Source: Acidilutibacter cellobiosedens
GTDB taxonomy: Bacteria > Bacillota > Clostridia > Tissierellales > Acidilutibacteraceae
DNA length: 64,000 nt
NCBI RefSeq assembly: GCF_004103715.1
Contig: NZ_CP035282.1
Span: 3,434,501 to 3,498,500, forward strand
Reading direction: 5' to 3'
Below are positions 11,561-62,412 of the stretch, piece after piece (position 1 is the stretch's first letter; each line of letters starts with the position of its first letter). The notes below the pieces were generated by a model. That model had not been told where the DNA came from. It saw only the letters and a list, made by a program, of their open reading frames with translations, and did no database searches. Both the position numbers and the translations under genes were made by a program.

Positions 11561-11609
11561 AAACAATTTATTATTAAATTGTTAAAAGTTTAATTTTTTT
11601 ACTATAATC

Positions 11610-28959: not shown

Positions 28960-29145
28960 TTCCCTTTCCTCTAAGTCGGAGTATCGAGAAGAAATACAAC
29001 ACCAAGTTTTCTGGCTTTCAGATCATCTTTAGGTCGAACCTTCCCATTTGTATACAAACAGTGGCAAAAACACCAACCTAAATTCCTGATTACAGCTGCG
29101 ACTACAGCAAGGGCTTTTCACCCTTTTCCTTATTGTGCTATATTT
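28960..29145 (-). promoter_or_regulatory. Cobalamin riboswitch 3, divergent sequence
   Basis: On the minus strand the order is AGGGTGAAAAGCCC, then TCGCAGCTGTAA, a long P5/P6 arm with TGCCACTG and GGGAAGG, and a B12 box variant AAAGCCAGAAAACTTGG near 29005-29020. The order and spacing match the cobalamin aptamer, although the sequence differs from riboswitches 1 and 2. A terminator follows. It commands the MoxR-to-ECF operon (28889 down to 12752). Confidence 0.9.
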
Positions 29146-29179
29146 TATCTTTTCCATATATTAAATTACTTTCATCAAC

Positions 29180-45200: not shown

Positions 45201-45201
45201 T

Positions 45202-46119: not shown

Positions 46120-46169
46120 TATGCTCTCTTTCAACCTCCATGGAATCATTATTTAATTTTTAATCCCTT

Positions 46170-46215
46170 CTATAATTATTAAATTCTACATTATTTTCCT
46201 AATTCCTCTAAAAAG
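46170..46215 (-). promoter_or_regulatory. Conserved upstream element, type 2 copy
   Basis: Shares about 40 positions with 54750-54796 upstream of the LytTR gene, including TATAATTATTA, ATTCTACATTATTTT and TTCCTCTAAAA (plus-strand letters). Its CTACATT-TTTTCCT core resembles part of the 52-bp elements at 48941, 51701, 53502 and 62361. Confidence 0.5.
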
Positions 46216-46324
46216 AGAGAACAATTTTATAATATATACAGGGAATTGAATTAATTTATTTTAATATTTCAGCTGAAACCCCTTATTCTTATAAATAAAA
46301 GTTCGAGGGTAGCTTTCATTTACA

Positions 46325-47074
46325 TCATCCTTTAATATCTCGATTTTTAAATATCATGATTTGACTTGCAAATGCAAGAACAATATATATCGTTATGCCT
46401 ATAATAAAAGAAGTATCGAACTGTCGGAAGTTGATCCACATAGTTTGGGCATTTTGGGATAATGTTGACACGGAATAGTTTGTAAATTTTTCTATAATCG
46501 GAAATACATAGGCCATGATATTAAATACAAAAAGTACCACACCCATTATTAATGTCAAAAATAACACCAATGCGGGAACCGTCTTTTGAAAGCAGAATAA
46601 AAAAGCAGCAGCAATCTGAGAAAAAGCAAGTGTTTTTAAATAGGTTATAATCCCCATAACCGCAATTGATTGAATATCCTGTGCATATACGGCTAGATGC
46701 CCACCCGCAATCATAAACGAAATAAGATAAACAGCACCCAAAATCAAAAATACTATAGCCGAATATAAGATAAATATAACGGCCTTAACAAGCAGATATG
46801 CCAATCTATGCAGTCCGGTACCTATAATCTTTATAAGCATTCTGTCTTTTAAATCATCTCCGTAAACGGCTAAAAATACCTGTGTGCCCACAAATACAGG
46901 TAGTAAGGAAATAATACTCTGTGCACTTTCAAGCAATGTGTTAGGTGTATAAAGATCTTGTATAGCCAAAAACAAAATACTTATAATATATACGAAAATC
47001 AAAAAAACATAATAAATAAAACTGCTTCGTTTATGAGTTAAACGCCATATTTCAGATTTAAAATAATTAAACAT
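46325..47074 (-). CDS. ABC-2-type permease (system 2)
   Basis: 249 residues with six helices, of the BcrB/lantibiotic-immunity-like permease type (FKSEIWRLTHKRSSFIYYV at the N-terminus is common there). AGGAGG precedes the ATG. It overlaps the ATPase gene by 8 bp. Bacteriocin immunity or export is plausible, but no specific cargo is shown. Confidence 0.75.
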   Translation of the reverse strand: MFNYFKSEIWRLTHKRSSFIYYVFLIFVYIISILFLAIQDLYTPNTLLESAQSIISLLPVFVGTQVFLAVYGDDLKDRMLIKIIGTGLHRLAYLLVKAVIFILYSAIVFLILGAVYLISFMIAGGHLAVYAQDIQSIAVMGIITYLKTLAFSQIAAAFLFCFQKTVPALVLFLTLIMGVVLFVFNIMAYVFPIIEKFTNYSVSTLSQNAQTMWINFRQFDTSFIIGITIYIVLAFASQIMIFKNRDIKG

Positions 47075-47963
47075 TCGTATTGCCTCCTATAAGATTCAAG
47101 AAATATTCTTCCAAGGATACCTGATTCACCTTAAGCTGCATCAAGTCAAGACCGTTTTCCACCATACATTTGGCAATGATATAAGGTCTGTCTTCATAAC
47201 CGGGCAAAATAATTTCCTTATTTTTAGTTACCCTGTAATCAGTGATTTTTAATTTATTTTCTAATAATTCACAAGCCTTCTTAAGCTTGTTTACTTGAAA
47301 TATAAGACCTTGATGTATGTTGTTATGCAGTTCTTTTGCACTAATTTCCTGCACTAAATAACCCTTGTTTATGAATCCGAAACGAGTGCCTATGAGATTT
47401 AATTCTCCCAAAATATGAGAAGAGATCAAAAATGTAGTTTGATATTTTTGATTAAGCTCCATCACAAGGTTCCTGAAATCCGCAATTCCCTGAGGATCTA
47501 AACCATTAGTCGGTTCATCAAGTATAACCATATCAGGATTTCCCAATAAAGCCTGCCCAATTGATAGCCTTTGTTTCATTCCCGTTGAAAATGTGCTGAA
47601 TGTTTTTGTCGAATTTTTAAGTCCTACAAGCTGTAAAATTCGGTTGATTTCCTTTTCATCTTCGATTCCTTTAAGCTTAGCGGCAAACATCAGATTATCA
47701 TGAGCATTTAAATAAGAGAAAAATCCGTCTTCCATCATAAAGCCAATAGAATGGCGAGCCATTTCCAAATTATAACTTTCTAAAAAAGTAATAGAACCAC
47801 CCGAAGGTTTGATAAGTCCCATTAAGAGTTTAAAAATAGTGGTTTTCCCGGCACCATTTTTGCCTATTAAACCATATATGTCTCCTTTTTGTACAGACAT
47901 AGAAACATTGTTAACCGCAAAATAATTACCATATTTCTTTGTCAGTTGCTGAGTTTGAATCAC
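47067..47963 (-). CDS. ABC transporter ATPase (system 2), BcrA-like
   Basis: 298 residues: Walker A GKNGAGKTT, signature FSTGMKQR, Walker B MVILDEPTNG, ISSHILGEL. The C-terminal extension ends in the EEYFLNLIG motif of BcrA/NatA-type ATPases. The start is GTG 47963 with AAGGAGG upstream. Two TTTAAG(T/A)CTTAAA palindromes flank its predicted promoter, so it appears separately regulated from the neighbouring transporters. Confidence 0.85.
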   Translation of the reverse strand: MIQTQQLTKKYGNYFAVNNVSMSVQKGDIYGLIGKNGAGKTTIFKLLMGLIKPSGGSITFLESYNLEMARHSIGFMMEDGFFSYLNAHDNLMFAAKLKGIEDEKEINRILQLVGLKNSTKTFSTFSTGMKQRLSIGQALLGNPDMVILDEPTNGLDPQGIADFRNLVMELNQKYQTTFLISSHILGELNLIGTRFGFINKGYLVQEISAKELHNNIHQGLIFQVNKLKKACELLENKLKITDYRVTKNKEIILPGYEDRPYIIAKCMVENGLDLMQLKVNQVSLEEYFLNLIGGNTNV

Positions 47964-48082
47964 ACTATGACCTCCTTGAGCTTAACTTTCATTTATTAAA
48001 CATCTGAACTTATTTTTGAATCACTAAAATACTTTTCACATCTTTTAAATCTTTCATATGGTCAATTTCTGGGCTATATAAA

Positions 48083-48144
48083 TTTTAAGTCTTAAAATCT
48101 CTTGTCGAGTCTATTATACTCAATAAGAAAATTTAAGACTTAAA
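48083..48144. promoter_or_regulatory. Paired palindromic operators flanking the system 2 promoter
   Basis: TTTTAAGTCTTAAAA (48083-48097) and TTTAAGACTTAAA (48132-48144) are copies of one quasi-palindrome, 48 bp centre to centre. A minus-strand TATAAT (48111-48116 region) lies between them. This suggests a repressor that binds on both sides of the promoter. Confidence 0.5.
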
Positions 48145-48181
48145 GAAATAATAAAGAAAAAATAAAGATTTCTTGATAAAT

Positions 48182-48889
48182 CTATAAAAATATCAATTTT
48201 TTGTTTTCAATTATAATTTTAAATAATCCTTTATTGTCATTTTTATCTATATTAGTTTCTTCAGTATTAACCCCTATGTCAATATCACTTTCCGTATTAT
48301 TATATTCTGTACCTTCCTTTACTAAAAATTTTATCAAAATAACACATAAAAATATGGTTACCGCATTTCCTATAAACAAATATTTTGTATAATTATTAAA
48401 TATAGTACCGCCAACAAGTTGTCCTACCGAAAGCCCTATATTATGCCCCAGATACAACAAAGAAAAAGCTGTGCTTCTGTTTTCATTATTAGTGAAGTTG
48501 GAAACCATGGCAGTATTGGAAGGTTGAGAAATTCCATCTGATACGTTGGCTAATATTAAAAATATAATCATTATTCTTGAATTCAGTAAAAATCCGCATA
48601 TCAGAAATAATATTCCGGTAAACCCCGAAAACAGCATGAATGTGCTTTTATACTTCCACCTGTCAGCCAATATTCCTCCCAATATCGAGGCAGGCACATA
48701 TATAACCGATGTGATCAACATTATTATCCCTGTTTCAAAAGGACTGTAATTCATTTTTTCGGTTAATATTAATGTAAGAAACGGATAAACAAAATTTCCT
48801 ACAGCATTAATTATTCTTATAAAAAACAATACATACATTTCTCTCGGTAAACCTTTGTATTCACTTATGTTACTTTTTATATTCAACAT
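48182..48889 (-). pseudogene. MFS transporter, 3'-truncated
   Basis: 235 residues with the first six helices of a major facilitator efflux pump (motif A region GGILADRWKYKS, then NVSDGISQPSNTAMVSNF). The central loop follows, and the frame stops at the start of helix seven (ENKKLIFL). Full-length relatives have about 400 residues. The 3' half is absent and the next 200 bp belong to another promoter. AAGGACAG precedes the ATG, and a 52-bp shared promoter element lies upstream, so it may still be transcribed. Confidence 0.75.
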
Positions 48890-48940
48890 ATTAACTGTCC
48901 TTCTTTCATGTTATAAGGGTTTATATTTGGCTGTCAACAT

Positions 48941-48992
48941 CTACATTGTTTTCCTTATTTAACTATATCACCATCGAAAAATATATCAATAA
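48941..48992 (-). promoter_or_regulatory. Shared 52-bp promoter element, copy A
   Basis: On the minus strand: TTGATA, 16 bp, TATAGT, then about 6 bp and AGGAAAACAATGTAG. It lies 52 bp upstream of the truncated MFS gene. Confidence 0.7.
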
Positions 48993-49123
48993 TAAATATC
49001 GCCTTCAATTTATGTAATGTAACAGAGTAACAGATTATACTGTGGAATATTTTTTCTTTTTTCATTTTAATAGTGAAACCTATTAGAAAATTGGATATAA
49101 TATGTATAAGGATGTGATATATA

Positions 49124-49564
49124 ATGGATAACAGAGAAAAATATGAATACTGGTTAGAAACTGCTAAATATGATTTAGAAACAGCAAAGATAATGATGAA
49201 TAACGGAAGATATATTTATGTTGTTTTTATGTGTCAACAGGCAATAGAAAAACTCACCAAAGGAATATATACATTATATACTAATAACGAACCACCATTA
49301 ATTCATAATATTTCGAGTATATTCAATTACCTAAAGAGAGAAATTAATTTTAAAGAGTATTTATCTATAAATGAATTTGAATACAATTTAAATAATTATA
49401 AAAGTTTTTTCGCTGAACTATTATCCTATTATATATCTGGCAGATATCCTAGTTATAAGGAAAAAATGTCTAATTTGATAAATTCAGATAGAGCTAAAAG
49501 AACATTGGCTACTACAGAGGAGGTATTCAAATGGATAGAATCCCTGAGTCAATACAAAAAATAA
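49124..49564 (+). CDS. HEPN-domain protein
   Basis: 146 residues with the HEPN pattern: EYWLETAKYDLETAKIMM, VVFMCQQAIEKLTKGIY and PPLIHNISSI. HEPN proteins are often RNases and pair with MNT nucleotidyltransferases as a toxin-antitoxin module. The Rx4-6H catalytic motif of toxic members is not clear here. AAGGATGTG precedes the ATG. It overlaps the MNT gene by 34 bp. Confidence 0.85.
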   Translation: MDNREKYEYWLETAKYDLETAKIMMNNGRYIYVVFMCQQAIEKLTKGIYTLYTNNEPPLIHNISSIFNYLKREINFKEYLSINEFEYNLNNYKSFFAELLSYYISGRYPSYKEKMSNLINSDRAKRTLATTEEVFKWIESLSQYKK

Positions 49565-49854
49565 TCAAAGATTATATTAGAAAATTAAACAAGAAGATTG
49601 TAATAGATAAAGCTATATTGTTTGGATCTTATGCAAAAGGCACTCCTCATAAATATAGTGATGTTGATTTAGCAATCTTTTCGGATTATTTTAAAAACAT
49701 GAATAGGATTGATGGTCTTTACTTTTTATTGTTAAATGCAGTGGATTATGAAATTGATCTTGAACCGCAACCATTTACTATGGATGACTATAGACAACCT
49801 GTCGGAATAGTAAAGGAAATAATAGAAACAGGAATTGAAATTCCAACGATATAA
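49531..49854 (+). CDS. MNT-type minimal nucleotidyltransferase
   Basis: 107 residues with the nucleotidyltransferase motif GSYAKGTPHKYSDVDLAI (GS...DxD, residues about 32-49) and a later ligand in EIDLEPQ. In HEPN/MNT modules the MNT enzyme adds AMP to the HEPN partner and neutralises it. GAGGAGG lies 7 bp before its ATG, inside the HEPN gene. The pair is the only plus-strand unit in this part of the island. Confidence 0.88.
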   Translation: MDRIPESIQKIIKDYIRKLNKKIVIDKAILFGSYAKGTPHKYSDVDLAIFSDYFKNMNRIDGLYFLLLNAVDYEIDLEPQPFTMDDYRQPVGIVKEIIETGIEIPTI

Positions 49855-49893
49855 TGCTAAGGATGACCTGATATAAAATTCTCTATTAAAAAC

Positions 49894-50679
49894 TTAAAAT
49901 CTTGAAAAAGAACCTTCTTTTGCTGCCTTTTTAAAGCTCAATTTGAATATAACTATTCCCAAGATTAAATATGCTATGGAATTTATAAATAAGAACAATA
50001 TATCTTGTCCCCCTATATTATAATTCGCACCTTCTATATTTTTTAGGAGGCTTACACTTTTAGTAAATGGAAGAGAGTATATAATCTTTTGAATTTTGGA
50101 TGGCAGTACCGAAAGATCAACAATGCTGGTCCCAAGAAAAAGAATGCTGATAATAAAAGACAGTTGTCCCACATTTTTATATATCAAGGTTGCCCCTCCT
50201 ATCATAAAGGAAAAACCTGCTATTCCCAATAACGATATCATAAATATCATTATCGTATCCATTCCTATATCTAATTTAATATTTGTGGAAATCATCAGAA
50301 GCAAGCTCAGCAGCAGTATCAATACAATATTTCTTATAAAATATATTATTAATCTTATTACATATATCTCCATTATACTATGATGGTTTATGCATACCTG
50401 TTCAAAGGTCCCTTCCAACAATTCTCTGTAGATTCCGTTATTCATAAAACTAATTGTAAATGAAAAGAAAAACCAGCATATGTACCCTACAAATTGTGTA
50501 GTAACCGCCCTGTTTATTTCCTCGGCAGACATTATGTTCATATTGCTTTTAATAAAAATATACAGTCCTATAAACACAAAATAATATACCAGCATATCCG
50601 CTAAAAAATTCAAAAAATATCTTCTTTGAATTATTAACATCTTTTTGGTTTCACTTTTAAATATATTGAGTATCTCCAT
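49894..50679 (-). CDS. ABC-2-type permease (system 3)
   Basis: 261 residues with six helices, of the NodJ/DrrB-like or ABC-2 family (QFVGYICWFFFSFTISFMNN, GTFEQVCINHHSIMEIYVIR, ending in SFKKAAKEGSF). The ATG at 50679 lies 9 bp after GGAGGA; one at 50688 is too close. It follows its ATPase by 30 bp. Confidence 0.75.
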   Translation of the reverse strand: MEILNIFKSETKKMLIIQRRYFLNFLADMLVYYFVFIGLYIFIKSNMNIMSAEEINRAVTTQFVGYICWFFFSFTISFMNNGIYRELLEGTFEQVCINHHSIMEIYVIRLIIYFIRNIVLILLLSLLLMISTNIKLDIGMDTIMIFMISLLGIAGFSFMIGGATLIYKNVGQLSFIISILFLGTSIVDLSVLPSKIQKIIYSLPFTKSVSLLKNIEGANYNIGGQDILFLFINSIAYLILGIVIFKLSFKKAAKEGSFSRF

Positions 50680-50709
50680 ATTACTCATTCCTCCATAAAA
50701 TTTGGCGAC

Positions 50710-51657
50710 TTAATTTTCCGGTACGGATTTCACCGTCTTTTTGTTACCTATCACCTCGGTAAATATATCTTCAAGGTCGCTTTTTTTCTTATATATATCC
50801 TTTATATTCATTCCATTCGATTTCAAAAGATTTAAAAAATCAAGAATTTCATTGTCATTATTCAATGTAACCATGAATTCAACACTATCTTCAAATTTTT
50901 CAATTTCCACATCAAATTTTGCTTTTATGATTTTTTCTGTATCATCACGGACGCCGTCTGCTTCTACAGCATAAACAATACTTTCGGAATACCTGTTTAG
51001 AAAATCAATATCCTCATCTAATACCATCGTCCCGTTATTTATTATGATAATCCTATTGCACAATGAGCTGATAAAATTAAGGTCATGGGATGTTATTATC
51101 ATGGTTCTGTCTTCTTTTATCAAATTCTTCAATACATCACGTATAAGCAAAACCGATTGAACATCCAATCCCAATGTAGGTTCATCAAGAAATAAAACCT
51201 TTGGATTATGAATTAAACTGCAGCATATAGCAACCTTCTGCTGCATCCCTCTTGAAAGTTTGCCGCATTCCATATTTCTTTTTTCTGTTAAGCTAAACAT
51301 TTCCAAGTATTCATCCATCTGATTCCTTATTTTTTTCTTTCCGATGCCCTTCATGCCCGCAAAATATTCTATATTCTCAACGGGAGACAGTTTCCAATAA
51401 ATATTTCTGTTTCCTTCCAATACGGCTCCTATATTTTTTAAATACTGTTTCCTGTCTTTCTTCAATGAATAACCGCAACATTCCACGTCCCCTTTTGTAG
51501 GTGTAATCAAGCCGCAGCTCATCTTTATGGTGGTAGTCTTTCCGGCACCGTTAGGGCCTAAAAATCCGACAATATCTTTATCATTTATTTCAATATTTAA
51601 ATTATTTACAACAACATGGTCCTTATATTGTTTTGATAACATATTATACTTCAGCAT
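50710..51657 (-). CDS. ABC transporter ATPase (system 3)
   Basis: 315 residues: Walker A GPNGAGKTT, signature LSRGMQQ, Walker B VLFLDEPTLG, ITSHDLNF. The long C-terminal extension (about residues 220-315) is typical of DrrA-type exporters. AAGGAGG lies before the ATG. Shared promoter element copy B ends 44 bp upstream. Confidence 0.88.
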   Translation of the reverse strand: MLKYNMLSKQYKDHVVVNNLNIEINDKDIVGFLGPNGAGKTTTIKMSCGLITPTKGDVECCGYSLKKDRKQYLKNIGAVLEGNRNIYWKLSPVENIEYFAGMKGIGKKKIRNQMDEYLEMFSLTEKRNMECGKLSRGMQQKVAICCSLIHNPKVLFLDEPTLGLDVQSVLLIRDVLKNLIKEDRTMIITSHDLNFISSLCNRIIIINNGTMVLDEDIDFLNRYSESIVYAVEADGVRDDTEKIIKAKFDVEIEKFEDSVEFMVTLNNDNEILDFLNLLKSNGMNIKDIYKKKSDLEDIFTEVIGNKKTVKSVPEN

Positions 51658-51700
51658 TAAATTAACCTCCTTAACAAGAGTTTACGTTTCGCTGCCAATC

Positions 51701-51752
51701 TCTATATCGTTTCCCTGATTTTAATTATATCGCCTTAAAAAATATATCAATA
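51701..51752 (-). promoter_or_regulatory. Shared 52-bp promoter element, copy B
   Basis: Minus strand: TTGATA, 15 bp, TATAAT, then a gap and AGGGAAACGATATAGA. It lies upstream of the system 3 ATPase gene. Confidence 0.75.
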
Positions 51753-51791
51753 TTTAAAGCATCTATGCAACCTGATGGCTCTATGCCATAC

Positions 51792-53477
51792 TTATTTAAA
51801 AACATTATACAAACTATAAAAATAGCCCTTCTTGTCCAACAAATCATAAAAATTGCCTTGTTCTTCTATTTGACCGTCTTTCATAGCAATAATCGAATCG
51901 TATTGTTTCAGTATACTTTCCGAAAGGTTATGAGTAACAACTATGCAAGTCAACTCATCAATATCGAGCAGTGAATTTTCAATACTGTGGGCAGTTTCAC
52001 TATCAAGTGATGATGTTGCCTCGTCTAATATCAATATAGGCGTCTTTTTTATAATAGCTCTTGCAATAGCAATACGTTGTTTTTCACCGCCTGAAAGAAG
52101 TACCCCGTTTTCACCTACATTTTCAAGCAATTTTTTAGGCTTACTGTTTACAAAATTATACAGTCCGCATAATTTAATGGTGGTATTTATTTCATCATCA
52201 CTATAATCTTTGTATAAAGTTATATTATCCTTTACAGTCGAATCAAAAATAAATACATTTTGATGTATTATAGACATTATTTTATATATATCATCAATAT
52301 TGATATTTCTTATATCCGTACCATCCATCAATATATTTCCGGAAAAGTTATCATAATATCTGAATAATATCCTCAAAAAAGTGGATTTTCCACAACCGCT
52401 CTTTCCTACAATGGCATATTTTTTACCTTTTTCTATAGTTAAATTTATATCCCTTAAAGTTTTTTTATCACTATTATAAGAAAAACTTAGATTACTAATT
52501 TCTATTTTATCGTTAAAATCATCTTTAGATATTCCGTTTGATGCCAGTTCTTTTTTGGTACAAATGGATTCAATATTATCGGCTATCAATTTAGTGGATT
52601 TTAGTTTGTTAATTCTTTCCGAAAACCTGCTTATAGGCGGCACTACGCTATTCATAAGCTGTATCGCTGCAAAAAGAAGTCCAAAAGTAATTTTCCCTTG
52701 TATAAAAAAATAAGTCCCCAATAAAATAGCTACAAAAAATATAGAAAAGCCAGTACCTTGAGATAAAGTTTCCACGCCTGCACTAAATTTTGTAAACTTA
52801 AATTTGGAATCCTCTGTTTTGAAATTATAGTTGCTAAATTCCTCTTTTATACTGTCTTCTATGTTAAAACCCTTTATTATTTCAAAACCGCTGAATGTAT
52901 CTTTCATATTTATAGTTAAATTTGATAATGAATCGGAATATTTTTTTCTCAGGCTGCTTACGGTTTTAGAAAATATTATAGGTATAATCAGTGTAATAGC
53001 TCCCACTATAAATACCCCTGCCGCAATTTGTACATTTACTTTAAAGATTGCAAAAGTTCCGATTGCCAGTGTAGCCAACTCTCCAATCAAATCAAGCAAA
53101 TTTATAAAGTAGTCCTGCTCCAATATATTTATATCATTTGTTAAAGTTGAAATATAAGAAGCACTATTTTTGCTGATAAAATCCGGCATGTCTTTATCTA
53201 TAACATTAGTATATATATCATTCCTCAGACTTTGTATATTTTTTTTGACAAACACTGCTTGAGTTATTTTTCTAAGATAAATTATAAGAAAATAACATAT
53301 CAAGTACAATACAATATATTTTAAATTTTTAATAAAACCCGGCATGTCCTTGTTGGTGCCAAAATCCAAAATATATTCAATTAAAAATGCTATTGATACA
53401 TCTGCAGCACCTTCTACACATCTTATAAAAACGCTTAAAAAAAATATTCCCTTATACTTGAAAATATACTTTTTCAT
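51792..53477 (-). CDS. ABC exporter, fused membrane and ATPase domains (system 4)
   Basis: 561 residues. Six helices lie in the first 310 residues (type IV exporter fold). An ATPase domain follows with Walker A GKSGCGKST, signature LSGGEKQR, Walker B ILILDEATSSLD and VVTHNLSES. There is no peptidase C39 domain, so it is MsbA/LmrA-like and not a leader-cleaving bacteriocin exporter. GGGAGG precedes the ATG. Copy C of the shared promoter element lies 25 bp upstream, and a related broken copy of this gene lies at 54830-55560. Confidence 0.9.
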   Translation of the reverse strand: MKKYIFKYKGIFFLSVFIRCVEGAADVSIAFLIEYILDFGTNKDMPGFIKNLKYIVLYLICYFLIIYLRKITQAVFVKKNIQSLRNDIYTNVIDKDMPDFISKNSASYISTLTNDINILEQDYFINLLDLIGELATLAIGTFAIFKVNVQIAAGVFIVGAITLIIPIIFSKTVSSLRKKYSDSLSNLTINMKDTFSGFEIIKGFNIEDSIKEEFSNYNFKTEDSKFKFTKFSAGVETLSQGTGFSIFFVAILLGTYFFIQGKITFGLLFAAIQLMNSVVPPISRFSERINKLKSTKLIADNIESICTKKELASNGISKDDFNDKIEISNLSFSYNSDKKTLRDINLTIEKGKKYAIVGKSGCGKSTFLRILFRYYDNFSGNILMDGTDIRNINIDDIYKIMSIIHQNVFIFDSTVKDNITLYKDYSDDEINTTIKLCGLYNFVNSKPKKLLENVGENGVLLSGGEKQRIAIARAIIKKTPILILDEATSSLDSETAHSIENSLLDIDELTCIVVTHNLSESILKQYDSIIAMKDGQIEEQGNFYDLLDKKGYFYSLYNVFK

Positions 53478-53981: not shown

Positions 53982-54707
53982 TCAATTCCAAGTTTCAACG
54001 ATACAATTAGCTGAGGTAATTTTGTTTTCAAAATCTTCCTTGTATTTCTCCCCTATTGATATAGGTTCTTCTATACTTATAAGTTTAATACTGTCATTAT
54101 TAAATTTTTCAATATACCTAATATTTACTATATAGCCTCTATGGCACCTTACAAAGTCTTTTGTCAGTTTATTTAAATCATCCAATAGCTTTTCCAAAGT
54201 AAACGTATAGGAAGAAAGAGAAATTTCTTTATTAACGGTGAATACATTTATTGATTTTTTTGCCGATTCAATATAAATGATTTCATTTGTTCTAACAACA
54301 TAGGAAAAATCTTTTTTCTTCAATATAATGTATGGTCCGGAATTATCGCACAACTCCGATGGATTTTTTCTCCTGTTCTTTTCTATAAAAAAATCGGTTA
54401 CATAATTCCAACAATGCATTTCCTTTAACATATCGCTTTTTGCCATAGAAACGAAAAAAACAAAAAATATAGGTGTTAGTCTATAAACATCCATATTTCT
54501 TATTTTTTTAGCTAATCCAATAGGTGAACAATTCTTTAAACCAACATCCAGCATAAATAAATCATAACGATCTGTTTTTATATATCTTAGGAATTCTTCA
54601 ACACAATTCGCTACAGTGATATTTAAATCGCTACGTATAGATTTTTCTGCTTCTGCCAAACTCTTTACAAAAATTGAATTATCTTTGACCAATAGCAATT
54701 TATTCAT
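53982..54707 (-). CDS. LytTR-family response regulator
   Basis: 241 residues. The N-terminal receiver domain has the phospho-acceptor region FMLDVGLKN. The acidic pair near the N-terminus is degenerate (LLLVKDNS), so phosphorylation is doubtful. The C-terminal LytTR DNA-binding domain is clear (IIYIESAKKSINVFT, DFVRCHRGYIVNIRYIEKF). LytTR regulators usually bind pairs of direct repeats upstream of peptide and transporter operons. There is no histidine kinase in the window. Its upstream region carries the type 2 element also found before ABC system 1. Confidence 0.9.
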   Translation of the reverse strand: MNKLLLVKDNSIFVKSLAEAEKSIRSDLNITVANCVEEFLRYIKTDRYDLFMLDVGLKNCSPIGLAKKIRNMDVYRLTPIFFVFFVSMAKSDMLKEMHCWNYVTDFFIEKNRRKNPSELCDNSGPYIILKKKDFSYVVRTNEIIYIESAKKSINVFTVNKEISLSSYTFTLEKLLDDLNKLTKDFVRCHRGYIVNIRYIEKFNNDSIKLISIEEPISIGEKYKEDFENKITSANCIVETWN

Positions 54708-54796: not shown

Positions 54797-54829
54797 TTAA
54801 ATAATATTATTTAATTTTATAATTATCAA

Positions 54830-55560
54830 ATACTTATAAAAAACAATTTTTATATTATTTGGATATGACTCTCCTAATGATAATTCAGGCTTAGAGCTAT
54901 CAATTTTATAAAAATTATAGAAATATCCTTTTTTCTCTATTAATTCATTAAAATTTGCATTTTTTGCCATACTCCCTTTATCTATAAATAAAATTTCACC
55001 ATATCTTCTAAATATATATCCATTTAATTTATGAGTTACTGTTATGATTGTTACATCATCTATACCGACTAATATATCCTCAATATTATATGCGGTTTAA
55101 GTACCTAATGCCGATGTGGCTTCACCTAAAATTAATATGGGAGTATGTTGTATTAATGCTCGAGCTATTGCTATCCTCTATTTTTGTTTTCCAGATAGGT
55201 CGGAACCATTTTCCCCGACTAAAGAATTCAATCCTTTCTCCATATTATTAATAAACTTATCTGCACCGCTTATTTGTAAACTTTCAGATATCTTATTGTC
55301 AGAAAAGTCTTTTGATAAACATATATTGTATTTTAAAGATTTATCAAACATATATATTTTGATGTATGGTTGATATTAACCTTACAATGGACGATTGGTT
55401 CACTGTTCTGATCTCATTCTCATCAATCATTATTTCTCCATCATAATTATCATAATAATCTAAAATCAATTTAATAAGAATTATTTTATCACATCCGCCT
55501 TCCCTGACAATCGCATATTTTTTGTTTTTTTCAAATTTATATGTAAAATTGTCTATTGCT
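54830..55560 (-). pseudogene. Broken ABC exporter ATPase domain
   Basis: Pieces of an exporter ATPase like that of system 4 can be read leftward: KYAIVREGGCDKIILIKLIL (decayed Walker A), DYYDNYDGEIMIDENEIR, a signature region LSGKQK followed by a stop, IAIARALIQHTPILILGEATSALGT followed by a second stop, then IITVTHKLNGYI. The membrane domain is missing. A frame change near 55370 also interrupts it. Confidence 0.8.
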
Positions 55561-55850: not shown

Positions 55851-56540
55851 CTAATCTACCATTCTTTTTCGATATGAGTATATAAATAGACAAATACTAA
55901 TTAGTAGCCATGTCGAAATGGTAGCACAATTAAATTTCATATTTTGTTTTTTTAGTAATTCTAACATCGCATTCGTTGGTAAATAGCGTGCAAACATTCC
56001 AATACTATCATTTAAATTGCCAAGAGCAGTAGGAATTAATAGAATTAAAATCAAAGGTGTCGATAGAATGCTAGTTGACATTTGATTTTTAGAAAGTATT
56101 CCTATTACAGCGCCTAAGCAAATTAAACTTATATTTGTAATCGAAGAAGTTAAAAAATACCAGCTATAATCTATAGTCGCACCAGTTAATAAATACACAA
56201 TGGTCCCGACAAACTGAGTTAAACAAAAAATTATAAACGTTTTTGAAAATAAGAACTCAATTGGAGACACATTTGCAAGCATCAATGTTCTTAATGTATT
56301 TTTTTCTTTTTCTTCTGATATTGAAATTGCCATTGAAGATATAGGCATTGTGCATACACTCATTAATAAACCAATAGTAAACACATAAAAAGAATCCATT
56401 TTTTTACCACCAAAACTAAATTTATGATAAAGTTCCGTGAATAATATCGGAAGCAATGTAAAAATTATTGTATTACTATTTCTAAGATTATTACGAATAT
56501 CTTTTATTAATAAAGCCTTTATCTTATTCAGTTTCTTCAA
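55851..56540 (-). CDS. ABC-2-type permease (RiPP cluster, last gene)
   Basis: 229 residues with six helices. The central CMPISSMAISISEEKEKNTL motif is typical of ABC-2/NatB permeases. The start is TTG at 56540 behind GGGAGG, overlapping the ATPase gene by 4 bp. With that ATPase it forms an exporter or self-immunity transporter for the cluster product. Confidence 0.78.
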   Translation of the reverse strand: MKKLNKIKALLIKDIRNNLRNSNTIIFTLLPILFTELYHKFSFGGKKMDSFYVFTIGLLMSVCTMPISSMAISISEEKEKNTLRTLMLANVSPIEFLFSKTFIIFCLTQFVGTIVYLLTGATIDYSWYFLTSSITNISLICLGAVIGILSKNQMSTSILSTPLILILLIPTALGNLNDSIGMFARYLPTNAMLELLKKQNMKFNCATISTWLLISICLFIYSYRKRMVD

Positions 56541-57385
56541 TATAAATTCCTCCCAGTAATTTTAAGAAAAACCTCTTCTAAATTTGGTTCTGATGAGTGT
56601 ATTGTAAGTATGCCTCCATTTTTTTCAAACCAATTCATAAGATCATAAAGTCCTTCTTTGTTCTTCTCCACTATTTTTTGTTTTCCATTTTTAGCCTTTG
56701 CATATACTGTATCGTTGCTATATTCCAGTTTTAATTTTTCTGGTGTATCACAAGCACATATTTTCCCTTGATTAAGAATTGCAACCCTATCACATAATTT
56801 ATCTGCCTCTTCCATATTATGTGTTGTGAGAAAAATTGTAGTTCCAGTATTATTTAGTTCAATAAGATATTCATGTATATTCTTTGCAGTTATAGGATCC
56901 AATCCAGATGTTGGCTCGTCTAAAAAAAGTAGCTTAGGTTTATGTAATATAGCACAAGCAAGCATTAATCTTTGTTTCATACCTTTCGATAAATTACTTG
57001 CCTTTTTTTTACACTCATCTATAAGATCAACTGCTTTTAATATTTTTTCTATTGTAACTTCAGTTAATGAGTGTATTCCAGCAAACAATTCTAGATTTTC
57101 TTGAATAGTCAGTCGTTCATAAAAACCTGTCGTGTCAGATAAAACACCAATATTATCGAAGAAGTTATTCTGAGACAGTGCAATAGGATTCCCAAATATT
57201 GATATTTGACCTTTATCAGCATTTAATTGTTTTGTCAATAATTTGATTGTTGTTGTTTTACCTGCACCACTTGGCCCTAAAAATCCAAATATTTCTCCTT
57301 CATCAACTTCAAAAGATAGCCCGGAAAGGGCTTCTTGTTTCCCAAAAAATTTATATACATCTACCATTCTTATTAAAATATCCAT
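56537..57385 (-). CDS. ABC transporter ATPase (RiPP cluster)
   Basis: 282 residues: Walker A GPSGAGKTT, signature LSKGMKQR, Walker B LLFLDEPTSG, LTTHNMEEA. The C-terminal extension ends NLEEVFLKITG, as in antibiotic-export ATPases. GGAGG is 8 bp before ATG 57385; a longer start at 57400 is less likely. It lies 22 bp after the other cluster ATPase. Confidence 0.88.
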   Translation of the reverse strand: MDILIRMVDVYKFFGKQEALSGLSFEVDEGEIFGFLGPSGAGKTTTIKLLTKQLNADKGQISIFGNPIALSQNNFFDNIGVLSDTTGFYERLTIQENLELFAGIHSLTEVTIEKILKAVDLIDECKKKASNLSKGMKQRLMLACAILHKPKLLFLDEPTSGLDPITAKNIHEYLIELNNTGTTIFLTTHNMEEADKLCDRVAILNQGKICACDTPEKLKLEYSNDTVYAKAKNGKQKIVEKNKEGLYDLMNWFEKNGGILTIHSSEPNLEEVFLKITGRNLY

Positions 57386-57407
57386 TACTATTTCCTCCAT
57401 TATACAC

Positions 57408-58076
57408 TTAAGAAAATATTTTTAGATATATTCGCTCGATTTCTTGCATATTAATATTTTCAAGCATTGCTTTTCCTTCTTTTATAAATACCACCTTTGT
57501 AGCAACATTTTTTACAAAATCAAGTACATGACTTGAAAGGATTGTAATTTTCCCTTTTATACTACGCTCTCGTAACAACTCCTTTAACTTTATCAATGTC
57601 ATCGTGTCTATTCCGTTTGTTGGTTCATCAAGTACAAGCAGATATGGATCCCCGACCAAGGAGGCTATTAATGCTACTTTCTTCCTTTGTCCTTGTGACA
57701 AATTTTTTAATTTATAATCTGCATATTGTTCTACGTTAAAGTAATATATTAACCGATCAATATTCTCATATGTTGTAATATTTTTCATACCAGCAATAAA
57801 TTTTAAAAATTGATAGGCATTCAAATTATCAATTAAATATGGTATTTCAGGTAAGTAGCCAATTTTATTTTTGCATTGAAAAATCGGTTTCCCGTTAAGT
57901 AGACATTCTCCCTTATCCTGACGATGTACATCACATATTATTTTGAGCAATGTGGATTTACCAGCTCCATTTGGCCCAACAATGGCTAAAATATCGCCAG
58001 AATTAGCTATAAAATCAGCATATAATAAACCAATCCCAGGAGCATATTCTTTTGAAATATTATAAAGGCATAACAT
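57408..58076 (-). CDS. ABC transporter ATPase, short (RiPP cluster)
   Basis: 222 residues: Walker A GPNGAGKST, signature LSQGQRKK, Walker B LLVLDEPTNG, LSSHVLDF. It is a minimal ATPase without the C-terminal extension. It overlaps the 424-aa membrane protein gene by one base, so these two form one transporter, separate from the ATPase/permease pair downstream. Confidence 0.88.
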   Translation of the reverse strand: MLCLYNISKEYAPGIGLLYADFIANSGDILAIVGPNGAGKSTLLKIICDVHRQDKGECLLNGKPIFQCKNKIGYLPEIPYLIDNLNAYQFLKFIAGMKNITTYENIDRLIYYFNVEQYADYKLKNLSQGQRKKVALIASLVGDPYLLVLDEPTNGIDTMTLIKLKELLRERSIKGKITILSSHVLDFVKNVATKVVFIKEGKAMLENINMQEIERIYLKIFS

Positions 58077-59350
58077 TAATCACGACCTCCACAGAAAATT
58101 TTTTGCGCTTTCTTTGTTGCTATCAACAAATATAAAACCGGAAGTGCCGGGAAAATCACAGTAATAAAAAGTAAAATAGTAAGTATTATTATAAATTTAT
58201 CCTGAGAATATAAATATCTCATAATAAGAACACATTGCATAGCACAAAGAAGTATGTTAATTATCAATACTATGCATAGTATTACAATCAAATTCATAAC
58301 TGAATAAGAACCATTAAGTAATGAAATTTCTAAAAAAGTTAACGATGGAATAAGCAGTACTGTCGAAACACTAAAAATTTTTGATACAAAATATTTATGT
58401 TGGCTAATAGGTAGGGTACGTATAAACGATATGTTTGACATATCATCTTTCATTATTTCTTCACTAAGTGTTGAGGTTACAAACGTATAAATAATTGCTA
58501 TAAGATAATTAGCATGTATATTGAAGTGGTATATTGCCGAAAGGCAACCTAAAATCAATGCAATAATATAAAATGCAGCAACTATAGGATTTGATAATGA
58601 AGATATTATATCTTTATAAAAGAGATTGCAATACATATTTGTAAAAATTTTTTTACTATGCTCTTTAATTTTTCGTCTTTTTGTATTTAATATGATTATT
58701 TCATAGGTATGATCTTTTGTACTATATAAAATTAACCATACAAAATACAAACATAGGATATACCACTTAGCGACAAAAAATTTAGAATATAGAATCATAA
58801 AAACACTATTGCCACCTTTATAGATAAATACTGATATAATTACAGCTAACAATGGTATACATAGTAGAATGATTGATATACATCTATTTTTGACTATCCA
58901 TTTTTTAATAATGGTATATAAATCATATATTGCTATCGAAATTACAATAATCCCCCAAAAACTGTATATCGCCTGATACACAGCAGTACCATTATTAACA
59001 TTCCAAAAAAGAATACATAATAAAGTATACACCAAAGCACATGGTAACACTTTGCAGCATATAACGAACCCACGAAAAAAAGAAGAAAGTTGTAGTGACC
59101 GAAAGAAACGATATTCTTGTGAATTTACATATCTTTCCATACAAAAAATGCCAGAAACACAAAGAACGATAAATAAATAGATTTGAATGATACAAACACG
59201 CATATGTATTTTATTACTTACAAAAGACATATGAAGTACGTCTTCCATGATAAGCAATAAAAATATAGATAGTATTAATATGACATACAATATTTTCTTA
59301 AGTATACTTGTATTAATTTCCATATGCATATAGTAAAAATACTTTTTCAT
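58076..59350 (-). CDS. Large ABC-permease-like membrane protein (RiPP cluster)
   Basis: 424 residues with about ten helices in two halves and a basic central loop (LNTKRRKIKEHSKKIF). In the second half NISFIRTLPISQHKYFVSKI is a typical coupling-helix region of ABC-2-like permeases. AAGGAG lies before the ATG. It is cotranscribed with the short ATPase. The substrate is probably the modified peptide of the cluster, by position only. Confidence 0.7.
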   Translation of the reverse strand: MKKYFYYMHMEINTSILKKILYVILILSIFLLLIMEDVLHMSFVSNKIHMRVCIIQIYLFIVLCVSGIFCMERYVNSQEYRFFRSLQLSSFFRGFVICCKVLPCALVYTLLCILFWNVNNGTAVYQAIYSFWGIIVISIAIYDLYTIIKKWIVKNRCISIILLCIPLLAVIISVFIYKGGNSVFMILYSKFFVAKWYILCLYFVWLILYSTKDHTYEIIILNTKRRKIKEHSKKIFTNMYCNLFYKDIISSLSNPIVAAFYIIALILGCLSAIYHFNIHANYLIAIIYTFVTSTLSEEIMKDDMSNISFIRTLPISQHKYFVSKIFSVSTVLLIPSLTFLEISLLNGSYSVMNLIVILCIVLIINILLCAMQCVLIMRYLYSQDKFIIILTILLFITVIFPALPVLYLLIATKKAQKIFCGGRD

Positions 59351-59450
59351 TCGGATTTCAACTCCTTGTAAACATAATCATAAACGCTTCCATTCAGATA
59401 TTTCTTCCGTGTCTATATGCTAGCAGATAAGAGAAAACTACTTGTAAAAA

Positions 59451-60071
59451 TCAATAATTAGTATTTATAAACATACTCTTTATAGTATCGAATACATATC
59501 GTATATTAGAAGTATGTTTTAGAGCCTTAACAAAAATATAGCCATCACTTTCGTAGCCAACAATCTTTGATGGAAATAAGGATAGTATAGGCAATATCAG
59601 TAAAGATATCGCAATAGGTTTCCTGTATCTAATTTTTAAAAAATATATAATAATAACAACAGTTAATGAAAATAAAAAGGAAAAAAAGGCACCATTAAAA
59701 GCAATAGATGCTAAGTCCTTTTCCTTTAAATCTGATTTTGTAAATCGAACAGATGCACTATAACATAATAATGGTATTGTTTTAATATAAATCACACGTA
59801 AAATAATACCTTGAATTGCTGAAAATCGGCCTAAATGTACAGCGGTTAGGACATGCAATGATTCTTCAACTGCTAAAGATAGCAGAAAAGAAAAAGTACA
59901 TATTGGCAAAAGAACAAGTTTTGTCTCTTTGAAAATATCAAATAAAGATAACAGTGCAAATATAAACAAAATTTTACTTTTGCATAATACACCATGTCCT
60001 AATATAGAACGCACTATCTGTAAAAAGGAAATTTTCTTGTTTAAGTACATCTGTAAAATTCTAAGATTCAT
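59451..60071 (-). CDS. Membrane protein resembling a degenerate M50 (site-2) metalloprotease
   Basis: About 206 residues with five or six helices. One helix carries LAVEESLHVLTAVHLGR, in the place where M50 proteases have HExxH, here changed to EExxH. A later YESDGYIF resembles the DG motif of the third metal ligand. If the relation is right, the first zinc ligand is lost and the protein may be inactive, or have another role such as immunity. The ATG at 60071 lies 8 bp beyond the radical SAM stop; the open frame extends upstream to 60176 within that gene. Confidence 0.55.
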   Translation of the reverse strand: MNLRILQMYLNKKISFLQIVRSILGHGVLCKSKILFIFALLSLFDIFKETKLVLLPICTFSFLLSLAVEESLHVLTAVHLGRFSAIQGIILRVIYIKTIPLLCYSASVRFTKSDLKEKDLASIAFNGAFFSFLFSLTVVIIIYFLKIRYRKPIAISLLILPILSLFPSKIVGYESDGYIFVKALKHTSNIRYVFDTIKSMFINTNY

Positions 60072-60078
60072 TTTTGCA

Positions 60079-61452
60079 TTATTCTCCTTTAACATTAAAA
60101 ATCGATTTTCGTATATATTCAGTACGTTTTTTATGCGATTCCGAACAATTAATCGACTTGCTGGTAGAAGCATCAAAAAAATATGTTTGTATTTCTTGTG
60201 TTGTAAGGTGTTTAGTATTCATAACAGAAGTATACGTAGTATAATGATCCCAGTTCTTATCAAATATTTCAAGACCAAGTTCATCAGCATGGTTAAACAT
60301 ATATGTCCCTGGATAAGGAGTTGAGATTGAATATACAATATACGCCCCTATAGATGATAACTCTTCTGCAAAAGCAATACTTTCTTCTGTTGTAGTTCTT
60401 GTATCATCAGGATTCCCGATAATAAAGCAGCATGAAGTTGGAATTTCAGCTTCTGCAGCTAAAGAAAAAGCTTTTCGTATTTGTTCCAAGCTTATTCCTT
60501 TTCTCATACTATTAAGCATAGTCTGAGAGCCACTTTCCACGCCAAACTGTATAGATACACAGCCGCTTTTCTTTAACCATTTCATTAGATCTTTGGTTAC
60601 AATATCTACGCGTGATTCACAAGCCCATTGAAAATTATTATCTTTATTTTTCTTTTTAGTAAACTCGTTAATTAATAATTCAAGACGTTCTACATCTGCA
60701 GTTACAGTATCATCAACAAAATGAAAATAGTTAATACCTAGTTTGGTTAAATAGTCTATCTCATCAACTACACTTTGCGCACTTCTACTTCTGTATCTTC
60801 CACCTCCCATAGCTCCAGCAGCACAGAAAATACATCTACCAGGACAACCTCTGCTTGATGAAATTGTACCAGGAGTTCTATACTTATTAATTTCAACAAA
60901 TTTTCGTTCTGGAAATGGTATCTCATCCAAATTTGTAATAAAAGCTCGATTTTTCGTTTTCATAACTTTATTTCCATCTCTATATACAATGCCTCTTATT
61001 TCATATAAAGATGTGATACTTTTCCCAATATAAAAATCGCATAACTCCTTAAGCGTTTCTTCTCCCTCCCGTAGAGAAATAATATCAACAAATGAATTTT
61101 TCAACGCATCATTATATTCAAATGTTACATGAGCTCCACCCATAACAATTATAATGCTATCATCCGTTTCTTTACAAAGTTTTGCTATGCGTAAACCGCA
61201 TTGATATGATTCTGTAGTTGTTGAAATGCCAATTATACGTGGCTTTTTAATGTTTATTATATCAATTATAGTACCAATATTGTTGTGCTCAAGTTGAAGA
61301 TCACAAATTTCAGCAACATAATTATGGATTTTAAGGTATGTAGCAATACTACAAATTCCAAGTGGAGGATAACTTGTAACACGATTAGATATCACTGCCA
61401 GAGGAGATGGAGAAGGTGCTGCAATTAATAGTACATCCAATAACCTTTTCAT
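60079..61452 (-). CDS. B12-binding-domain radical SAM enzyme (RiPP cluster)
   Basis: 457 residues. The N-terminal Rossmann-like cobalamin-binding domain (about 1-140: YPPLGICSIATYLKIHNY, RIIGISTTTESYQ, IIVMGGAHVTF) lacks the DxHxxG motif, as is usual in class B radical SAM enzymes. The radical SAM barrel (about 190-400) has the cluster motif SRGCPGRCIFC (Cx3Cx2C) and FHFVDDTVT, FGVESGS. Class B enzymes methylate unactivated carbons, including Val and Ile side chains in peptides. It follows the PqqD-like gene after 150 bp. AAGGAGG precedes the ATG. Confidence 0.9.
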   Translation of the reverse strand: MKRLLDVLLIAAPSPSPLAVISNRVTSYPPLGICSIATYLKIHNYVAEICDLQLEHNNIGTIIDIINIKKPRIIGISTTTESYQCGLRIAKLCKETDDSIIIVMGGAHVTFEYNDALKNSFVDIISLREGEETLKELCDFYIGKSITSLYEIRGIVYRDGNKVMKTKNRAFITNLDEIPFPERKFVEINKYRTPGTISSSRGCPGRCIFCAAGAMGGGRYRSRSAQSVVDEIDYLTKLGINYFHFVDDTVTADVERLELLINEFTKKKNKDNNFQWACESRVDIVTKDLMKWLKKSGCVSIQFGVESGSQTMLNSMRKGISLEQIRKAFSLAAEAEIPTSCCFIIGNPDDTRTTTEESIAFAEELSSIGAYIVYSISTPYPGTYMFNHADELGLEIFDKNWDHYTTYTSVMNTKHLTTQEIQTYFFDASTSKSINCSESHKKRTEYIRKSIFNVKGE

Positions 61453-61603
61453 TTTTTCCCTCCTTAAGCAAAATTCTAAAAAGATACTGCCATATTTTGA
61501 ATAATTTCAAGACCATAACTAAACTGTAACAGTAGATACAAGCATAATCAGATATATTAATTAATGTAAAAAATAATTACCTACTCTACTTATTTATATA
61601 CAT

Positions 61604-61900
61604 CTATGCTAAAGGATCCCAATTATATACGATAAGATCTTTCTCAGCCATCTGATCGAGTAGTAAACAAACATCTCGATTAATTTGATCTATAGAAGCT
61701 CCTGTAAAGTTTTCAGTAATCTTTTCACCTAATTCACGTATAGTTGCGTTACCATCTATTCGGGCCCAAAGGAATGCCCCTACGCCAGATATCCTAAAAA
61801 TGCCTTCTCCTTTTATACTCGCAACATACAATTTAGTCTCTTCTTTATCTGTTTTAAAAATAGAAGTCCTACGCCATGGTATATAGTCAAGTTTATCCAT
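61604..61900 (-). CDS. PqqD-like peptide chaperone
   Basis: 98 residues with the PqqD fold pattern: a beta-hairpin start, then FRISGVGAFLWARIDGNATI, RELGEKITENF and INRDVCLLLDQMAEKDLIV. PqqD proteins bind the leader of a ribosomal precursor peptide and present it to a radical SAM enzyme. It lies 60 bp after the 43-aa precursor candidate and 150 bp before the radical SAM gene, all on one strand. GAGGTG precedes the ATG. Confidence 0.88.
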   Translation of the reverse strand: MDKLDYIPWRRTSIFKTDKEETKLYVASIKGEGIFRISGVGAFLWARIDGNATIRELGEKITENFTGASIDQINRDVCLLLDQMAEKDLIVYNWDPLA

Positions 61901-61924
61901 AATTTTTCACCTCAATTAATTATG

Positions 61925-62149
61925 TAGCGAGAGATTCAATAATTTTTAATTAATTATAACTACTCACCAGGAGATGGTATTAAAACTCCTACAATAACAA
62001 TTAAGACTCCAACAACAATAGGAGCGTGCGTTTCAACAATATCAGATTCTTCTACCCAATCCATAACAGGTGATGAATATACTTTCTTCATTATGCTCAC
62101 CTCCTCTCTTTCTCTTTATTCTTATACTCGCCAAAAGAATCTCTCGCTA
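61925..62149. repeat. 13-bp inverted repeat flanking the precursor gene
   Basis: TAGCGAGAGATTC at 61925-61937 occurs in exact inversion at 62137-62149. In the leftward transcript the two copies flank the peptide gene and could pair 5' to 3'. Confidence 0.7.
61960..62091 (-). CDS. Candidate RiPP precursor peptide
   Basis: 43 residues, too short for routine gene calls. A very strong ribosome-binding site (GAGGAGGTGAGC) stands before the ATG at 62091. The leader begins MKKVYSSPVMDWVEESD. It has the Y-x-x-P motif followed by acidic residues, as in precursors recognised by PqqD-like domains. The C-terminal part is very hydrophobic and Val/Ile/Gly-rich (IVVGVLIVIVGVLI) and ends PSPGE. It contains no Cys, Ser or Thr for thioether rings in that core, which fits C-methylation better than lanthionine or sactionine chemistry. 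It is the first gene of the PqqD/radical SAM operon. The product is unknown. Confidence 0.75.
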   Translation of the reverse strand: MKKVYSSPVMDWVEESDIVETHAPIVVGVLIVIVGVLIPSPGE

Positions 62150-62360
62150 TTTGTAACCAGTAAAAAAACAAAAACACAGTATGACCCTAACGTAATATTC
62201 TTATAGTAGATATTTATATATTATTAATTTCAGTATACAAATATAGTTCATAGGTAGCTCCGATCACAATAATAAATATTCTTTGTTGCCATCTTCATAG
62301 GATAAAAGGTAAAACTAAGTCCACAAATAAGTATTACATTTTATAATATCAGCCCCCACC

Positions 62361-62412
62361 CCTATATCGTTTTCCTACCTTAATTTTATCACTCCCCCAA
62401 AACATATCAATA
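62361..62412 (-). promoter_or_regulatory. Shared 52-bp promoter element, copy D (RiPP operon)
   Basis: Minus strand: TTGATA, 16 bp, TAAAAT, then a gap and AGGAAAACGATATAGG. The next leftward gene is the precursor, 270 bp away. The rest of the 62092-62476 gap holds only the leader region and the 13-bp repeat arm. Confidence 0.7.

Follow-up and report, generated by a model that had tools for sequence, protein, structure and literature searches.

A candidate RiPP cluster with a YxxP-leader precursor, a PqqD-family protein and a B12-binding radical SAM enzyme in Acidilutibacter cellobiosedens

The stretch of DNA analysed here, referred to as the window, comprises 64,000 nucleotides of the genome of Acidilutibacter cellobiosedens. 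Coordinates are positions in this window, L-numbers denote related loci and G-numbers denote genomes. Eight closely spaced genes have been identified on the minus strand between positions 55851 and 62091, and together they constitute a candidate cluster for a ribosomally synthesised and post-translationally modified peptide (RiPP):

61960..62091, minus strand: precursor peptide of 43 aa, MKKVYSSPVMDWVEESDIVETHAPIVVGVLIVIVGVLIPSPGE, with an ATG start and AGGAGG 8 nt upstream
61604..61900, minus strand: PqqD-family peptide chaperone (RiPP recognition element, RRE) of 98 aa, PF05402 above cut-off
60079..61452, minus strand: class B (B12-binding) radical SAM enzyme of 457 aa, PF02310 and PF04055 above cut-offs
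59451..60071, minus strand: M50-like membrane protein of 206 aa with EExxH, PF02163 below cut-off
58076..59350, minus strand: ABC transporter permease of 424 aa with multiple transmembrane segments, PF09847 (12TM_1) weak and below cut-off
57408..58076, minus strand: ABC transporter ATPase of 222 aa, PF00005 at 90.4 bits
56537..57400, minus strand: second ABC transporter ATPase of 287 aa, PF00005 at 110.2 bits
55851..56540, minus strand: second ABC permease (ABC-2 type) of 229 aa with a TTG start, PF12698 and PF01061 above cut-offs

The intergenic gaps, from the precursor to the last permease, are 59, 151, 7, 100, -1, 7 and -4 nt, the first permease gene overlapping that of its ATPase by 1 nt. 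Because the gaps between successive genes are small, it is plausible that the eight genes form one operon. A first-pass annotation of this DNA had placed the cluster at 55851-62412; the minus-strand cluster itself is confirmed and its genes end at 62091. The gene set named there (PqqD, B12 radical SAM enzyme, two ABC transporters) agrees with the Pfam assignments, which back the PqqD protein, the radical SAM enzyme, the ATPases and the second permease, and the strong ribosome-binding site proposed for the 43-aa open reading frame (ORF) is the AGGAGG 8 nt from the ATG. No lasso cyclase, lanthionine synthetase, YcaO protein or C39 peptidase is found among the Pfam and NCBIfam matches listed for the eight proteins, in keeping with the earlier statement that a lasso cyclase, a lanthionine synthase and a C39 protease are lacking. 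The NCBIfam matches listed are the best 25 per protein (out of 31 for the radical SAM enzyme and of 206 and 208 for the ATPases), and none of those listed reaches its cut-off. The description of the locus as a RiPP-type cluster outside the standard classes is consistent with this, neither precursor nor enzyme having a curated model listed at cut-off.

The precursor is composed of a YxxP leader motif, an acidic leader, a hydrophobic core and a Pro-containing tail. The stretch APIVVGVLIVIVGVLIP is hydrophobic and devoid of Cys, Ser and Thr, as had been claimed for the core; the claim does not extend to the tail, PSPGE, which contains Ser40. The mean hydropathy of the core is 2.86 over 17 residues. 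No Pfam or NCBIfam match to the precursor has been obtained up to an E-value of 1.

The PqqD protein scores 42.8 bits with PF05402 (E-value: 6.9e-11), a model whose cut-off is 23.4. As is characteristic of RRE-dependent RiPP loci, a PqqD protein above the Pfam cut-off adjoins a modifying enzyme and a transporter, and a short conserved precursor carries the YxxP recognition motif. Some RRE groups are reported to bind leaders with a W/Y/LxxP/L/I motif (PMC12710340), and YxxP is described as essential to RRE binding in another RiPP of Bacillota (PMC13381572). The radical SAM enzyme has an N-terminal B12-binding domain (PF02310, residues 19-137, 65.7 bits against a cut-off of 32.1) and a radical SAM domain (PF04055, residues 197-361, 87.1 bits against 29.5) with the CxxxCxxC motif CPGRCIFC, the combination that defines class B radical SAM enzymes. 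Its AlphaFold2 model has a mean pLDDT of 86.

The membrane protein encoded next had earlier been called M50-like. Its membrane character and its place in the cluster hold, while its similarity to peptidase M50 lies below the level set by Pfam (PF02163, 13.7 bits against 27.2) and EExxH stands at residues 69-73 instead of HExxH. Residues E69, E70, H73 and D176 are invariant in all seven aligned M50-like sequences, the motif of the L112 protein being EETFH. In the model of the 206-aa protein (mean pLDDT 82) the motif lies within a long helix that is followed by a beta-hairpin. A search of the genomes of the class with this protein returned only the window and a fragment with stops in G227. Membrane M50 proteases have been reported to release pearlins and to act on the epipeptide (PMC10885120), and this protein is proposed to serve as a leader protease or exporter.

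A genome scan with the radical SAM protein alone (P0003) found no relative; 53 loci were obtained when 84,980 species genomes were scanned with the three-sequence alignment A1. A profile was built from nine radical SAM sequences (the window and the rows L022 (= L037), L033-L036, L038 and L039). With this profile the window, L022 (= L037), L033, L034, L035, L036, L038 and L039 all score at least 688 bits, L023 follows at 639 bits and the remainder in the same scoring lie at 474 or less, a gap that is partly built in because the same rows built the profile. L112 (G413), outside the nine profile rows, scores 753 bits. The closest clade of radical SAM enzymes comprises nine loci, namely the window, L022, L033 (Caloranaerobacter azorensis), L034 (a Lachnoclostridium metagenome-assembled genome, MAG), L035 (Clostridium manihotivorum), L036 and L038 (Zixibacteria MAGs), L039 (an Alkalibaculum bacchi MAG) and L112. 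Since two of the members belong to Zixibacteria, the set crosses phyla. In a tree of 68 radical SAM rows the window falls in a five-row clade with L033, L034, L035 and L112 (support 99/97) and also in a 14-row set (support 99/94).

The system is sparsely distributed. With alignment A4, matches at an E-value of 1e-90 or better occur in 9 of 150 sampled genomes of the order, that of the window included, and six of the nine are of more distant types. Three families, sampled with A4 because each held a match, have 2 of 32, 2 of 11 and 2 of 4 genomes matching. P0003 alone matches 8 of 391 genomes of the class at 1e-50. Matches on plasmids amount to 41 records, all distant and below 60% identity; the best of them (Rhizobium acidisoli), the sole one inspected, has different neighbours.

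All nine loci of the clade encode a PqqD protein, fused to the radical SAM enzyme in L022 and L039, and eight encode the EExxH M50-like protein. A YxxP precursor with a hydrophobic core is present in seven, the exceptions being L022 and L034; in each of the seven the ORF combines a ribosome site, similar length, YxxP and a hydrophobic core. The contig of L022 stops about 100 bp upstream of the PqqD-radical SAM fusion gene. Sets of precursor, PqqD protein and B12 radical SAM enzyme, for which the first-pass annotation had advised a search, are therefore found in related genomes, and the small ORF is kept beside the enzyme in relatives, the loss of which would have spoken against the proposal. 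The same YxxP leader motif also occurs beside more distant PqqD/B12 radical SAM sets.

A scan of 61 sequences gave 783 ORFs of 38-65 aa preceded by a ribosome site. Sixteen of these have YxxP near the N-terminus; ten are candidate precursors by PqqD/B12 radical SAM genes at nine loci and the other six are scattered, an enrichment computed once the motif was already known, and hence not a blind test. The L038 precursor was missed by the scan because its ORF starts at the contig edge. Further YxxP precursors occur in L112, L113, L114 and L115, giving a total of 14 loci, and the YxxP label is clustered on the radical SAM tree (7 changes against 18.9 when shuffled). YxxP precursors are present in 10 of the 19 loci that have a PqqD match. 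The nine without one are L022 (cut off), L034 (a hybrid), L024 (a Cys-containing small ORF), L043 and L066 (other small ORFs), L028, L048 and L073, where the small-ORF scan gave none of the YxxP type, and L086, which was outside that scan.

The two Zixibacteria precursors differ at 38 nucleotides, 11, 6 and 21 of them at codon positions 1, 2 and 3, with proportions of synonymous (pS) and nonsynonymous (pN) differences of 0.547 and 0.199. In view of this codon-position bias and of the excess of pS over pN, the pair is most likely translated and under purifying selection. The small ORF and the cluster are conserved beyond chance, as their retention in relatives indicates. If the ORF were spurious, the PqqD protein and the enzyme would act on some other protein or on a small molecule. 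Such an explanation could account for L034, which lies inside the clade and has no YxxP ORF beside its PqqD gene, and for the search of the 391 class genomes with the precursor (P0001), which gave nothing beyond the window except a match in G254 (E-value: 0.02) that was judged to be chance, falling as it does within a 571-aa frame. It is nevertheless highly improbable, since the ORF is kept with its ribosome site, YxxP and hydrophobic core in the seven loci described above and the codon-position bias of the Zixibacteria pair speaks for translation.

The transporter genes are more variable. In L033, L035 and L112 an ATPase gene and a large membrane protein occupy the same positions, and a single ABC pair follows the M50-like gene (both read from the sequence, the latter without Pfam). 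In L022 and L039 an additional radical SAM gene precedes the ABC genes, which in L034 lie upstream, and in L036 the gene next to the M50-like one encodes a peptidase M1 (PF01433). The best NCBIfam match listed for the second ATPase of the window is drrA, below cut-off.

What the data directly support is the presence of the eight genes, their joint conservation, the leader motif and selection on the coding sequence of one precursor pair. We consider it reasonably probable that the cluster represents an undescribed RiPP family, the product being a hydrophobic, C-methylated and membrane-active peptide made by a PqqD/B12 radical SAM route, with leader removal by the M50-like protein and ABC export. 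By analogy with characterised systems we infer RRE binding, methylation, leader removal, export and an antimicrobial role. The N-terminal YxxP leader of the 43-aa precursor would be bound by the PqqD-type RRE protein, which would present the precursor to the B12-dependent radical SAM enzyme. At unactivated carbons of the core, which is rich in Val, Ile and Leu, the enzyme would remove hydrogen, and methylcobalamin would supply a methyl group to the core carbon, giving beta- or side-chain C-methylation of Val, Ile, Leu or Ala in steps of +14 Da. Cleavage of the acidic leader, within the membrane or at its surface, would then fall to the M50-like protein, and one or both ABC transporters may export the hydrophobic peptide of about 17-22 residues or protect the producer. 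The product is predicted to be a peptide that acts on membranes, as an antimicrobial or in competition.

Of the steps in this pathway we are least sure of the chemistry, because the best matches of the enzyme mix methylases with BchE, AprD4 and OxsB and because the reactions of B12 radical SAM enzymes vary. A peptide C-methyltransferase acting on Val/Ile of the core is plausible by comparison with ApyD, an RRE-containing B12 radical SAM enzyme that beta-methylates Tyr in a RiPP (PMC10635010), with the bottromycin radical SAM C-methyltransferase, which methylates Val (PMC11285071), and with TmoD, which carries out three methylations on a carrier peptide (PMC9303977).

Several observations weigh against the proposed pathway. 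None of the best 25 of the 31 NCBIfam models matched by the enzyme is at cut-off; the highest (HpnJ, BchE, PhpK and ApyD) are of mixed chemistries, and the curated methyltransferase models all score below their cut-offs (rSAM_ocin_1, 119 against 281.85 bits; ApyD, 135 against 750; PhpK, 144 against 600). The solved structure nearest by sequence is that of AprD4, named a diol-dehydratase, and ring contraction, ring closure and thioether formation are also catalysed by B12 radical SAM enzymes (PMC13331322). In the M50-like protein the HExxH motif is without its first His. The second ABC pair of the window has no counterpart adjoining the L033, L035 and L112 clusters, and no ABC genes are seen downstream in L036 and L038, the contig of the latter ending there. 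The YxxP loci are not monophyletic in the radical SAM tree. The precursors of the Caloranaerobacter-type pair, L033 and L112, give no evidence of purifying selection (7 differences, pS 0.066, pN 0.049). A mean hydropathy of 2.5 is reached by 4.1% of 122 background ORFs, and the cores of several relatives, at 1.4-1.8, are unexceptional.

Some of these points would suit a cluster of the same RiPP logic in which the radical SAM enzyme does not methylate but epimerises core residues, joins them by a C-C or ring bond, or dehydrates them. The cyclase BchE, the dehydratase AprD4 and the ring-contracting OxsB are among the nearest characterised enzymes by profile and by PDB sequence, non-methylating B12 radical SAM enzymes have been reviewed (PMC13331322), and the radical SAM enzyme TvgB converts Val to cyclopropylglycine (PMC9062424), which makes Val a chemically reachable target. 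The RiPP-associated B12 radical SAM enzymes ApyD, TmoD, PoyB/C and those of bottromycin are, on the other hand, reported as methyltransferases, and a non-methylating course is considered unlikely, though not negligible.

A possible regulator of the cluster, whose membership in it is uncertain, is encoded 1.1 kb downstream:

53982..54707, minus strand: LytTR response regulator, PF04397 above cut-off, receiver domain just below

Genes for LytTR or AgrB proteins are found next to L039, L040 and L115 as well, so that they stand beside 4 of the 14 YxxP loci against none of the 52 other sequences scanned; the contrast is biased, and a lead rather than a test, because both profiles were built from these matches. 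It could be taken to suggest a pheromone or signalling function for the modified peptide, which the M50-like protein would free and agr/LytTR-type regulators would sense. The agr systems make their own peptide, and for this reason agr/LytTR are more likely to regulate the cluster; two ABC transporters, moreover, suit export and immunity. A signalling role is accordingly thought improbable. The idea of LytTR binding repeats upstream of the precursors was dropped, as 12 of 13 upstream regions are no better than base shuffles (the exception being L039, p 0.01), and promoter-like sites in the region are no commoner than in shuffles.

Three cobalamin riboswitches occur on the minus strand of the window (9980-10167, 11381-11577 and 28984-29162), the second of them upstream of a DUF4430 protein gene, and CbiQ and ECF transport genes lie at 12752-15940. 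The earlier link between the cluster and this uptake locus is unsupported, for the transport genes are about 40 kb and the nearest riboswitch about 27 kb from the cluster, no cobalamin riboswitch was found in eight related loci, and the genome of the window has a cobS match.

The loci gathered in this analysis suggest a broader picture, which we put forward tentatively. A widespread undescribed RiPP superfamily, united by the YxxP leader, PqqD and one lineage of B12 radical SAM enzymes, may remodel aliphatic cores into membrane-active peptides, with the EExxH protein as a new kind of leader protease. At least four architectures would be included:

Architecture 1: M50-like/ABC, the window type
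Architecture 2: CGFNC precursor and a second B12 radical SAM enzyme (L023, L113)
Architecture 3: Gly/Ala/Val precursors ending in PGPxxPG, with paired B12 radical SAM enzymes (L040-L042, L115)
Architecture 4: YcaO/ThiF-like hybrid without YxxP (L034)

The precursors of L023 (12618-12755) and L113 (7880-8017) have a YEAP leader, the CGFNC motif and a tail PxPGPT, and each locus has two B12 radical SAM genes. PGPxxPG-type precursors, with a YxxP leader and a Gly/Ala/Val/Ile core, are found in L040 (7354-7530), L041 (3471-3638 and 3657-3827), L042 (6446-6631) and L115 (12040-12207 and 11841-12011); they are in tandem in L041 and L115, and each cluster has two B12 radical SAM enzymes. Reading of the sequences further gave a subtilisin-like protein for L040, L041 and L115 and, for L042, a C39-like ABC protein. 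In L034 (2704-11394) YcaO/ThiF chemistry is apparently combined with a PqqD protein and a B12 radical SAM enzyme. The locus encodes a ThiF protein (PF00899), a protein read from its sequence as YcaO-like, an M50-type protein with canonical HELGH and a small ORF (2704-2835) with a hydrophobic core ending in CGGC. L114 (1395-13011) has four B12 radical SAM genes, two PqqD-like genes and a YxxP precursor, and some of its neighbours presumably resemble TldD/PmbA proteins. The small ORFs of L043 (6205-6610) and L066 (6509-6766), which start with MLKRP or MLPKP, have Gly/Val-rich ends and lie by PqqD and B12 radical SAM genes, may constitute a further family of precursors.

Between the LytTR regulator and the cluster (54797-55490) there are, by eye, decayed ABC gene fragments that resemble the intact ABC gene at 51792-53477. 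Several more ABC-type export genes were read from the sequence near the cluster, on the minus strand at 43736-53477; among these Pfam confirmed only 51792-53477, and 44487-45293 has no match. At 49124-49854 a HEPN protein gene precedes one for a nucleotidyltransferase (PF05168, PF01909), an arrangement suggestive of a HEPN-MNT toxin-antitoxin pair.

Methylation at the aliphatic C-H bonds of peptides is an uncommon reaction of practical value, and the literature consulted ascribes its RiPP examples to a small number of pathways. The precursor, the PqqD protein and one enzyme make a compact system for the steering of a B12 radical SAM enzyme by an RRE, including the question of the path taken by the enzyme along a nearly featureless Val/Ile core, and the set occurs in named Clostridia such as Caloranaerobacter azorensis. 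The leader-protease activity proposed for the EExxH protein is likewise approachable, and a candidate class of membrane-active peptides would be added.

Among the open-access papers listed by the searches, none was found to describe this precursor-PqqD-B12 radical SAM set, subscription papers being mostly outside that literature. Tools of the antiSMASH type might, we presume, flag the cluster as RRE-containing. A YxxP leader read by a PqqD-like RRE is shared with lasso peptides and the LPP family of Bacillota. The window cluster differs in that neither a lasso cyclase nor that type of leader peptidase is among the matches listed for the eight proteins, and a lasso reading was rejected on this ground; the main text of the LPP paper does not mention radical SAM.

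As is proposed for the window enzyme, the C-methyltransferases of bottromycin (BotRMT) and polytheonamide (PoyB/C) use radical SAM chemistry to methylate unactivated carbons in RiPPs, among them those of Val (PMC11285071). The window cluster differs from these pathways in the lack of YcaO or a further tailoring enzyme, in a leader without Pfam match and in its discrete PqqD protein and YxxP leader; a proteusin reading was rejected, a leader of that type being absent. The aminopyruvatide pathway also combines an RRE with a B12 radical SAM enzyme on a RiPP precursor, and the ApyD model matches the window enzyme at 135 bits, far under its cut-off of 750. ApyD targets Tyr and holds the RRE itself (PMC10635010), and the window cluster has no MNIO or P450. 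The pearlin tmo cluster (TmoD, TmoG) shares a B12 radical SAM enzyme, an RRE protein, a membrane metalloprotease and a transporter (PMC9303977). The window cluster is devoid of PEARL and MNIO proteins, and carrier-peptide logic does not apply because the precursor C-termini vary among relatives and the C-terminal residue is not conserved; for this reason, and as no PEARL Pfam match is found among the eight proteins, a pearlin reading was rejected.

In layout the cluster resembles the epipeptide locus of Bacillus (yydFGHIJ in B. subtilis; epeXEPAB), which comprises a precursor, a radical SAM enzyme, a membrane protease and an ABC transporter (PMC7026026, PMC10885120) and whose 17-mer product permeabilises membranes (PMC7026026). 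The predicted product of the window cluster would likewise be short and membrane-acting. The window cluster differs in its B12-binding radical SAM enzyme, separate PqqD protein, EExxH motif, second ABC transporter and different precursor. YydG is not known to contain a B12-binding domain such as that of the window enzyme. The cluster reads as an epipeptide layout in which a C-methylating B12 radical SAM enzyme would replace the epimerase, and it probably represents an RRE-guided B12 radical SAM RiPP family with its own precursor type.

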